Below are positions 14,796 through 23,689 of a stretch of DNA of 64,000 nt, piece by piece; the stretch's first letter is position 1; each line of letters begins with the position of its first letter. The stretch lies in the NCBI GenBank assembly GCA_030549495.1, contig JAUIRK010000288.1, positions 186,001 through 250,000 of the forward strand, written 5' to 3'. The stretch comes from Nectonema munidae. Its lineage: Eukaryota; Nematomorpha; Nectonematoida; Nectonematidae. A program made the position numbers and the translations under genes. The notes under the pieces were generated by a model that did not search any database, was not told the origin of the DNA, and saw only the letters and a program-made list of their open reading frames with translations.

Positions 14796-16454
14796 TCATC
14801 ATCATCATCATCATCATCATCATCATCATCATCATCATCATCATCATCATCATCATCATCATCATCATCATCATCATCATCATCATCATCATCATCATCA
14901 TCATCATCATCATCATCATCATCATCATCATCATCATCATCATCATCATCATCATCATCATCATCATCATCATCATCATCATCATCATCATCATCATCAT
15001 CATCATCATCATCATCATCATCATCATCATCATCATCATCATCATCATCATCATCATCATCATCATCATCATCATCATCATCATCATCATCATCATCATC
15101 ATCATCATCATCATCATCATCATCATCATCATCATCATCATCATCATCATCATCATCATCATCATCATCATCATCATCATCATCATCATCATCATCATCA
15201 TCATCATCATCATCATCATCATCATCATCATCATCATCATCATCATCATCATCATCATCATCATCATCATCATCATCATCATCATCATCATCATCATCAT
15301 CATCATCATCATCATCATCATCATCATCATCATCATCATCATCATCATCATCATCATCATCATCATCATCATCATCATCATCATCATCATCATCATCATC
15401 ATCATCATCATCATCATCATCATCATCATCATCATCATCATCATCATCATCATCATCATCATCATCATCATCATCATCATCATCATCATCATCATCATCA
15501 TCATCATCATCATCATCATCATCATCATCATCATCATCATCATCATCATCATCATCATCATCATCATCATCATCATCATCATCATCATCATCATCATCAT
15601 CATCATCATCATCATCATCATCATCATCATCATCATCATCATCATCATCATCATCATCATCATCATCATCATCATCATCATCATCATCATCATCATCATC
15701 ATCATCATCATCATCATCATCATCATCATCATCATCATCATCATCATCATCATCATCATCATCATCATCATCATCATCATCATCATCATCATCATCATCA
15801 TCATCATCATCATCATCATCATCATCATCATCATCATCATCATCATCATCATCATCATCATCATCATCATCATCATCATCATCATCATCATCATCATCAT
15901 CATCATCATCATCATCATCATCATCATCATCATCATCATCATCATCATCATCATCATCATCATCATCATCATCATCATCATCATCATCATCATCATCATC
16001 ATCATCATCATCATCATCATCATCATCATCATCATCATCATCATCATCATCATCATCATCATCATCATCATCATCATCATCATCATCATCATCATCATCA
16101 TCATCATCATCATCATCATCATCATCATCATCATCATCATCATCATCATCATCATCATCATCATCATCATCATCATCATCATCATCATCATCATCATCAT
16201 CATCATCATCATCATCATCATCATCATCATCATCATCATCATCATCATCATCATCATCATCATCATCATCATCATCATCATCATCATCATCATCATCATC
16301 ATCATCATCATCATCATCATCATCATCATCATCATCATCATCATCATCATCATCATCATCATCATCATCATCATCATCATCATCATCATCATCATCATCA
16401 TCATCATCATCATCATCATCATCATCATCATCATCATCATCATCATCATCATCA
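14796..16454. repeat. Perfect (TCA)n / (ATG)n array, 553 units
   Basis: 1659 bp of uninterrupted TCA on the plus strand, ending exactly where the truncated LINE begins. On the minus strand it reads as an unbroken run of methionine. Because ATG is the only methionine codon, this shows directly that there is not one substitution in about 550 units. It has no coding meaning. Such purity implies recent expansion, homogenisation or an assembly effect. Confidence 0.97.
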
Positions 16455-17656
16455 GATAATTATGCTTTTAAAAAGCATCACAGTACTGAATCAATGATCT
16501 TTACTTTAGTAAATGACATACAACAGAATAAATCTAAAAACCTGCATACATTTCTTCTAGCCATAGACATTCAATCAGCATTTGATACTCTTGACAGAGA
16601 TATTTTACTCAATATTATGGAAAAAAAGATTGGTCTATGTTCTAATGCTTTAAATTGGCTTCATTCGTACTTTGAATGTAGGTCGCATTGTACGTCGATT
16701 GATGGTTTCTTATCCAAATCTATTGAGGCAGAACATGGGGTTCCACAAGGCTCTGTGCTTGGCCCGTTCTGTTTTAATATCTATGTTTCAGTTCTTCTTG
16801 ACTTCATAAAAGATGCAGGCTTCAAAGTTCTAGCATATGCGGATGATATATATATTTACACTCCTTTCCATGACAATTTTTCAGTTTTAACTTTACACAG
16901 AAGAATTCCAGAATTTTACTCAAAACTTAAGAAAGAAATGAATAAATTAAGACTGAAACTAAATGATAAAAAAACACAATTAATTGTTTTTACTTCATCC
17001 TCTCAATCTTCTTTTGAAAAAATCAAAGTTGGAGAACTGGTTTTTGAAATCAAACAAGAAATAAACATTCTTGGAGTGCCACTTGACAAATTTCTTAATT
17101 TTGATGCTTTCATTATCAAAAAAGTTAAAGAGGGCTACATATTTTTGAAAAATTTAAGACCGCTGAAAAAATTCTGTCAAAGAGTCATCTCAAAACGTTA
17201 GTTAATGCATACGTTGTGAATCGATTCGACTATTGCAACTCTCTTTTATATGGACTATCAAAAATTAAGCTAAGAAAACTTCAAATTTTGCAAAATGACT
17301 GTGCTCGTTTGATTCTTGGCAAAAAAAGGCATGAGAGTGTTACCAACTTTCTTCCAGAACTTCATTGGCTGAACATTGAACAAAGAATTGCCTTTAAGAA
17401 TATACTTCTAGTCTACAAATGCCAGAAATACAAGAAACCAAGTGCTTTAGCTTACACCATTGAAAAAAATAACTCATTTTCTGTCATAACAACTTGTGAT
17501 TACACAACTCCAGTCTATAAAGCATGTAAATTGTGGAATGTTTTGCCATCCTACTTAAAAGAAACTGAAACTTTGGAAATTTTTAGAAAAAATTTAAAAA
17601 CTTATTTTTTTATCAATTTCAATGGAATGATAAGCTCATTGAACATGTATATATGA
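16455..17656 (+). pseudogene. LINE ORF2 fragment, reverse transcriptase C-terminal part, one frameshift
   Basis: The reading frame is open from the array junction (DNYAFKKHHSTESMIFTLVN), although the first ATG is at 16494. Visible RT blocks are LAIDIQSAFDTLD (first catalytic Asp), GVPQGSVLGPFCFNIYV, and AYADD (catalytic Asp pair). After the RT comes the CR1/L2-type tail with RFDYCNSLLYGL, LQILQNDCARLI and LHWLNIEQRIAFK. A single-base loss around 17170-17180 shifts the frame, so the tail continues in another frame from about 17180 to the stop at 17656. The endonuclease and ORF1 are missing because of 5' truncation, so the copy is dead. Confidence 0.9.
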
Positions 17657-17668
17657 ATTCTCTCATAT

Positions 17669-17708
17669 CGCGTGACTGAACCTTTATATTTTAATATGTA
17701 GTTGCGCG
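17669..17708 (+). promoter_or_regulatory. 3' UTR hairpin of truncated LINE
   Basis: CGCGTGACT can pair with AGTTGCGCG across a 22-nt loop to form 9 bp including two G-U pairs. The same two arms occur in the full-length element at 23177-23221. In related LINEs, 3' hairpins are what the reverse transcriptase binds to start target-primed synthesis; that role here is inferred. Confidence 0.6.
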
Positions 17709-17737
17709 TTAAATAAATAATTCCTTCCTTCCTTCCT

Positions 17738-23124: not shown

Positions 23125-23176
23125 CGAACTTATGTCTTCACTAAATATATACATTTGAGATTATAATCTTTTCATC

Positions 23177-23221
23177 CGCGTGACTGTACCTATACCTACT
23201 TTCATGTATTGTAGTTGCGCG
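23177..23221 (+). promoter_or_regulatory. 3' UTR hairpin of full-length LINE
   Basis: CGCGTGACT (23177-23185) pairs with AGTTGCGCG (23213-23221) to form 9 bp including two G-U pairs, with a 27-nt loop. The loop differs in length and sequence from the truncated copy, while both arms are identical. This is the pattern expected for a selected RNA structure. A role in RT recognition is inferred from CR1/L2-type elements. Confidence 0.65.
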
Positions 23222-23251
23222 TAAAAATAAAACTTTCCTTCCTTCCTTCCT

Positions 23252-23689
23252 TCATCATCATCATCATCATCATCATCATCATCATCATCATCATCATCAT
23301 CATCATCATCATCATCATCATCATCATCATCATCATCATCATCATCATCATCATCATCATCATCATCATCATCATCATCATCATCATCATCATCATCATC
23401 ATCATCATCATCATCATCATCATCATCATCATCATCATCATCATCATCATCATCATCATCATCATCATCATCATCATCATCATCATCATCATCATCATCA
23501 TCATCATCATCATCATCATCATCATCATCATCATCATCATCATCATCATCATCATCATCATCATCATCATCATCATCATCATCATCATCATCATCATCAT
23601 CATCATCATCATCATCATCATCATCATCATCATCATCATCATCATCATCATCATCATCATCATCATCATCATCATCATCATCATCATCA
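23252..23689. repeat. Perfect (TCA)n array, 146 units
   Basis: 438 bp of pure TCA following the TTCC tail of the full-length LINE. It ends at ordinary AT-rich DNA (AATTTATATTATC). Its minus-strand poly-Met and plus-strand poly-Ile frames are non-coding. Confidence 0.97.

Follow-up and report, generated by a model that had tools for sequence, protein, structure and literature searches.

The window, that is the whole stretch of 64,000 nt analyzed here, contains two LINEs, termed A and B, set among three pure (TCA)n arrays (Table 1). The order described in the sequence-only reading (array, truncated LINE, array, LINE, array, in a single orientation) holds, both LINEs lying on the + strand, and its figure of 3.17 kb of pure TCA was reproduced by Tandem Repeats Finder as the sum of the three arrays, each at 100%. 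Also as claimed there, both elements end in four TTCC units directly before the repeat, the common junction being (TTCC)4 then TTCATCATCA. The protein difference between the two LINEs, put at roughly 40%, turned out larger, as their ORF2 are 53-54% identical, i.e. about 46-47% different; LINE B, which had been called full-length, does carry both ORFs, but its last ORF2 residues are unlike those of the B copy L006. A control sample of 40 kb, composed of 20 systematically placed pieces of 2 kb, contained one TCA-type run of at least 15 nt, this run being 15 nt long.

Table 1. TCA arrays, LINEs and their parts at the window locus
Feature	Position in window	Strand	Remarks
Pure (TCA)n array, 1.66 kb, 553 copies at 100%	14795..16454	+	Flanks LINE A at 5', interpreted as target DNA; Tandem Repeats Finder
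LINE A copy, 5'-truncated, ORF2 split over two frames	about 16454..17737	+	99.7% to the A copy of L002
LINE A ORF pieces	16494-17201, 17216-17656	+	
LINE A 3' terminal RNA stem-loop	17669..17708	+	z -3.8
LINE A (TTCC)4 tail	17721..17736	+	
Pure (TCA)n array separating LINE A from LINE B	17738..18809	+	Tandem Repeats Finder, 100%
LINE B copy, ORF1 and ORF2 present	18810..23251	+	
LINE B ORF1, N-terminal PHD-like C4HC3 spacing and three CCHC-like motifs	19004..20338	+	Alignment, by eye
LINE B ORF2 (P0001), APE-type endonuclease and reverse transcriptase	20338..23124	+	Pfam
LINE B 3' terminal RNA stem-loop	23177..23221	+	z -3.6
LINE B (TTCC)4 tail	23235..23250	+	
Pure (TCA)n array, 3' flank of LINE B	23252..23689	+	Tandem Repeats Finder, 100%

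Elsewhere in the window, the - strand carries at 59988-61079 one long ORF in which Pfam recognized a mitochondrial carrier domain (Mito_carr, 2.6e-06), and Tandem Repeats Finder detected tandem repeats at 43427-43691 and 30667-30842, with units of 87 and 97 bp, respectively.

Related families and the make-up of their elements

The host genome searched (211.6 Mb, 748 contigs) holds several related LINE families, namely A, B, C and D, together with relatives that include families E and F. A search for the exact tail followed by TCA, and so conditioned on TCA, gave 16 places, 14 of them fetched as L001-L014 and two in the window, all of which sort into families A, B and C. At these loci the members are at least 99.3% identical to their family reference, two further A copies standing at 98.97-99.05%. 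Between families A, B and C the ORF2 sequences are 53-63% identical, and the targeting trait is common to families about 37-60% diverged in ORF2. The comparison of B with C over 948 codons of ORF2 gave a dN of 0.25 and a dS of 2.4; for A against C the dS value was saturated. In a tree built with the 120 best-listed of 2418 relatives, picked by similarity to B, families A to D form one clade with a support of 0.996, family D being represented by a short piece of 261 residues.

Several LINEs may occupy one system of arrays. The order on C587 is D-TCA-BC'-TCA-C-TCA, and on C106 locus L002 combines its A copy with family D, the tail of which is TTCA, as D-TCA-D-TCA-A-TCA. One copy, at C587:334631, was placed in C solely on its 3' end; in ORF2 it is 73% identical to B. 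Some neighboring copies go back to duplication of one insertion: on C106 the two D copies, which have a TCA array between them, are so read because they share a truncation point and about 99% identity, and the two D copies on C91 have the same flank. Four E copies spaced at 3.57 kb on C729 (1443799-1454545) are likewise taken as a tandem duplication, since the two flanks read (L055/L056) are nearly alike. Duplication of one unit was rejected for those copies of A, B and C that were compared, as their truncation points and outer flanks differ.

Pfam recognized a reverse transcriptase (RVT_1, 1.9e-29) and an endonuclease (Exo_endo_phos, 1.8e-06) in ORF2 of LINE B, and the presence of an APE-type endonuclease and a reverse transcriptase rests on Pfam and structure search, the ORF2 of B and C having been scanned; no RNase H domain was found in these two ORF2 by Pfam scans with E values up to 1. 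The AlphaFold model of ORF2 (pLDDT 86.4) had human LINE-1 ORF2p as its best PDB match, and its endonuclease part also matched the endonuclease of TRAS1 in the structure search; PDB sequence searches and the structure search confirmed the endonuclease and reverse transcriptase folds and nothing further. Nine ORF2 from families A, B and C, searched over their last 260 residues with a loose pattern for the R1-type C-terminal CCHC, gave no match. When the ORF1 sequences of these three families were aligned and inspected by eye, the PHD-like C4HC3 spacing and the CCHC-like motifs were seen to be conserved; Pfam scans of ORF1 gave no PHD or RRM match, and zf-CCHC or zinc knuckles were matched at sub-threshold level only.

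Families A, B and C have in common a 3' stem-loop (z -3.6 to -4.8). With D added, 10 out of 10 pairs hold in the four families and two pairs are changed on both sides, a covariation that comes from four sequences only and was scored as well by 43 of 500 shuffles. The short 3' tails are family-specific: TTCC in A, B and C, TTCA in D, and TTC or ATCA in further relatives. The element's own 3' end is the conserved stem-loop plus the short family-specific tail, without a TCA array.

Flanking DNA of the copies across the genome

We also used a 3' pattern silent about TCA, made of the 3' stem and two TTCC units, which found 38 distinct places (A 10, B 8, C 12, F 2 and E 6, as sorted by 3' end). At the 36 places whose flanks were read, two of the four tandem C729 copies being left out, TCA followed in 7/10 copies of A, 8/8 of B and 11/12 of C, that is in 26 of the 30 copies of these families, the other four lying in other DNA; the values for F and E were 1/2 and 0/4 (three loci). 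In two B copies TCA is seen only briefly before the contig ends (12 nt at C391:23 and 6 nt at C677), C668 has a TCA flank of 12 nt, also at a contig end, and interrupted arrays stand behind several A and C copies (L046-L050, L052). Pure arrays of at least 189 nt make up at least 259 kb, or 0.12% of the genome, as summed from 86,491 matches in steps of 3 (the reversed pattern gave 18), with array lengths that depend on the assembly. Consequently 26/30 is a several-hundredfold excess, with a P value of about 7e-62 even at a generous chance rate of 0.3%. The pattern seen in the window recurs at many places of the genome.

Family D, searched with its own 3' pattern, was found at 33 distinct places, of which 32 were read (C602 was left out). 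TCA followed in 17 copies, five of them resting on the four TCA units of the pattern match alone, and other DNA in 15; with the duplicates on C106 and C91 counted once, the value is 16/30. Among the TTC-tailed copies, four of six lie in TCA (L073, L075 with 27 nt, L076 and L081), L074 does not, and L079 lies in (TTA)n; this last copy, on C723 (L079/L100), has (TTA)n on both sides. A protein search in which 55 of 4649 first candidates were scored yielded at least 56 matches, and 20 further 3' flanks obtained from it, which overlap with the D tally, comprised 13 with TCA, five without and two uninformative ones (a contig end and Ns).

In the TCA-free copies L039-L042, L045, L053-L056, L072, L074, L080 and L082 the family tail is followed immediately by unrelated DNA, and 11 of the 15 TCA-negative D copies end in the same manner; L119, also among these 15, has an interrupted TCA block nearby.

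At the other end of the elements, TCA was found 5' in 24 of the 27 copies that have TCA at 3' and a 5' junction that was read, at many different truncation points. They comprise three A copies (L002, window and C716), seven of B (L006, L009, L012, window, C166, C391:23 and C641:659114), seven of C (L001, L005, L008, L010, L011, L013 and C587:339537), six of D (L002, C65, C296:151322, C298:3156, C587:690338 and C606) and the copy at C587:334631, the start of which was deduced from the end of L067. Other DNA stands 5' of L004, L065 and C308, the start of the latter being uncertain and scored as a miss. The count omits L003, L007, L014, L087, L097, L104 and L105 (Ns or contig ends) as well as the copies on C580, C687 and C694; C407 has TCA at 5', its 3' end lying beyond the contig. 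The 5' junctions of seven truncated copies carry 0-15 nt of filler or an overlap of 1 nt, and in L009 this filler consists of a stretch of the repeat in inverted orientation. Inside a (TCA)n array a target-site duplication is unreadable; six other copies gave no convincing one, a shared but offset 8-nt word being present in one of them.

In all TCA-flanked copies that were read, the TCA strand carries the sense sequence of the element. Among those of L038-L057 and L066-L085 in which the 3' motif was located, none had a run of at least four TGA units in the 150 nt of 3' flank, hence we take the orientation to be constant.

Arrays also occur away from these elements. Genome-wide there are 302 array ends with at least 33 nt of repeat followed by a non-T base, and among the 67 array clusters formed by the first 100 of them listed, 57 have no listed LINE within 8 kb, the LINE lists behind this count being incomplete. 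On C697 (L036 with L014), the TCA array beside a C copy runs for at least 7.6 kb without error.

Probable target preference and its alternatives

We consider it highly probable that a non-LTR lineage composed of families A, B, C and D and their TTC- and ATCA-tailed relatives has pre-existing (TCA)n as its preferred insertion site and enters it in one orientation. The sequence-only reading had described the two window LINEs as locked into the repeat and listed, as support for targeting, that nearly every genomic copy be followed by TTCC repeats and TCA, with TCA at the 5' junction too. Both junctions do lie in (TCA)n for most copies readable at their two ends, these belonging to several diverged families, and this pattern agrees with what was found for A-C at 3' (26/30) and for the 5' side (24/27); it does not extend to D (17/32) or E (0/4). 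The word "locked" is too strong, as 4/30 of the A-C copies and 15/32 of the D copies are elsewhere and one relative is in (TTA)n. Copies without TCA on either side, which that reading named as evidence against targeting, occur, but they are a minority in A-C. The preference for TCA is strong, not absolute, and some families share the target less strictly than others.

During such an insertion, the predicted APE-type endonuclease would nick the TGA strand of the repeat; the reverse transcriptase, held by the 3' stem-loop, would prime at the nick (target-primed reverse transcription) and start on the TTCC or TTCA tail, and the second, 5' end would be closed with short filler.

An origin of the arrays from the elements themselves, with the reverse transcriptase adding (TCA)n as a tail or reading it off a TCA tail of the RNA and later insertions landing downstream, would agree with the length and purity of the arrays beside LINEs (at least 7.6 kb at C697) and with L004 and L065, where TCA stands on the 3' side and DNA of another kind on the 5' side. 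However, where members of the same families lie outside TCA, no TCA array follows their tail, which led us to read TCA as the preferred target and not as a tail; because of these copies a tail-only model was rejected, and the suggestion that the reverse transcriptase extends a TCA tail is not supported. The presence of TCA also at 5' in 24/27 copies, and the 57 of 67 clusters (from the first 100 of the 302 ends, with incomplete LINE lists) that stand apart from any listed LINE, point in the same direction, making an array produced by the element very unlikely. Even less credence can be given to random insertion in which copies survive, or are seen, mainly in harmless arrays, or spread by duplication or recombination between arrays. 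TCA arrays are indeed numerous and probably neutral, and some places do duplicate one insertion (E on C729, D on C91 and D on C106); yet insertion at random predicts both orientations and no wrong-orientation copy appeared among the flanks checked, the identity of about 99% or more between family members leaves little time for selection, and the truncation points and outer flanks of A, B and C copies differ.

Returning to insertion into pre-existing repeats, the specificity could be set by annealing of the RNA tail to the nicked (TGA)n strand, the endonuclease itself being non-specific. Rich in T and C, the tails have TC in common with the repeat, and a short tail-target pairing has been proposed for the telomere-specific SART1Bm in the excerpt considered of PMC7265360. 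Nevertheless, the TTCA tail of family D fits TCA best and D is less specific than the TTCC families (17/32 vs 26/30; Fisher P 0.006, duplicate copies counted), so the choice of target is unlikely to depend on tail annealing alone, which we hold to be an improbable account; most of the specificity probably resides in the endonuclease or elsewhere in ORF2. A greater age of the D copies may be an alternative reason for their lower specificity.

Placement of the lineage among known LINEs

The combination of an APE endonuclease, a reverse transcriptase that lacks CCHC at its C-terminus and an ORF1 bearing motifs of PHD-like and CCHC-like type suggests that the lineage belongs to the Jockey superfamily, on its CR1/L2 side, rather than to R1, a placement made from domain arrangement and general knowledge of the clades. 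The domains seen thereby agree with the CR1/L2-like label given in the sequence-only reading. The ORF2 of R1-clade elements carries a C-terminal CCHC, and R1 membership was rejected because this motif had no match in the nine ORF2 of families A, B and C. Within the R1 clade, Waldo and Mino are APE LINEs that insert inside simple repeats; the Dong group, in turn, has a restriction-like endonuclease. CR1/L2 lineages bear a short tandem-repeat tail at their 3' end, and the elements described here resemble them in having a 3' stem-loop followed by such a tail. HeT-A and TART, of the Jockey clade, are LINEs of the Jockey superfamily with a special chromosomal destination, a feature shared with the families under study; they add to chromosome ends, whereas the insertions reported here are inside a trinucleotide array.

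A landing habit like that seen here with TCA is reported mostly from other branches of the LINE tree. According to the excerpts considered of the respective sources, SART1Bm inserts in (TTAGG)n (PMC7265360), TRAS is a LINE inserting in a simple repeat and DONG inserts into (TAA)n (both PMC2887409), and Togen targets (TG)n while some HERO families target microsatellites, the HERO and NeSL groups having a restriction-like endonuclease (PMC4640811). As far as these excerpts describe them, Dong, HERO and Togen resemble the present families in their insertion into simple repeats and differ in the endonuclease, which here is APE-type. The likeness to the R1-clade elements Waldo, Mino, TRAS and SART, to the extent covered by the same excerpts, is that of an APE-endonuclease LINE inside a simple repeat; unlike R1-clade elements, the families analyzed here lack the C-terminal CCHC, have a short microsatellite tail and target TCA. 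The excerpt of PMC4120745 lists an ORF1 of type IC (PHD, RRM and CCHC) for L2_2 and CR1_3. Our families resemble CR1/L2 lineages by their APE endonuclease and reverse transcriptase, the lack of an RNase H match and their two ORFs, and their ORF1, with its PHD-like and CCHC-like motifs, may be of a type like IC; they differ in that the excerpts considered name no simple-repeat target for those lineages. Searches of titles and abstracts in the open-access literature, a body of work that leaves subscription journals and Repbase mostly outside, turned up no CR1/L2 lineage with a TCA target, which is weak evidence of novelty.

A broader scenario, which we put forward as speculative and rather unlikely, is an independent origin of microsatellite targeting within the CR1/L2 side of the Jockey superfamily, in which the endonuclease would read a T-N-A rhythm (TCA, once TTA) kept through swaps of the 3' tail, and cycles of insertion would help to lengthen the arrays, the lineage enlarging its own landing sites. 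A CR1/L2-type lineage whose families share a trinucleotide target with graded strictness would give a natural series for finding the residues that set target choice in APE endonucleases, and the link between a LINE lineage and very long pure trinucleotide arrays in its host raises the question of whether insertion lengthens arrays.

Two array neighbors of other kinds were also observed: at L008 a short telomere-like CCCTAA run follows directly after the 3' TCA array, inside the contig, and at L005 (positions 1-468) a gag-like zinc-knuckle coding stretch, recognized by eye, ends at the TCA array.
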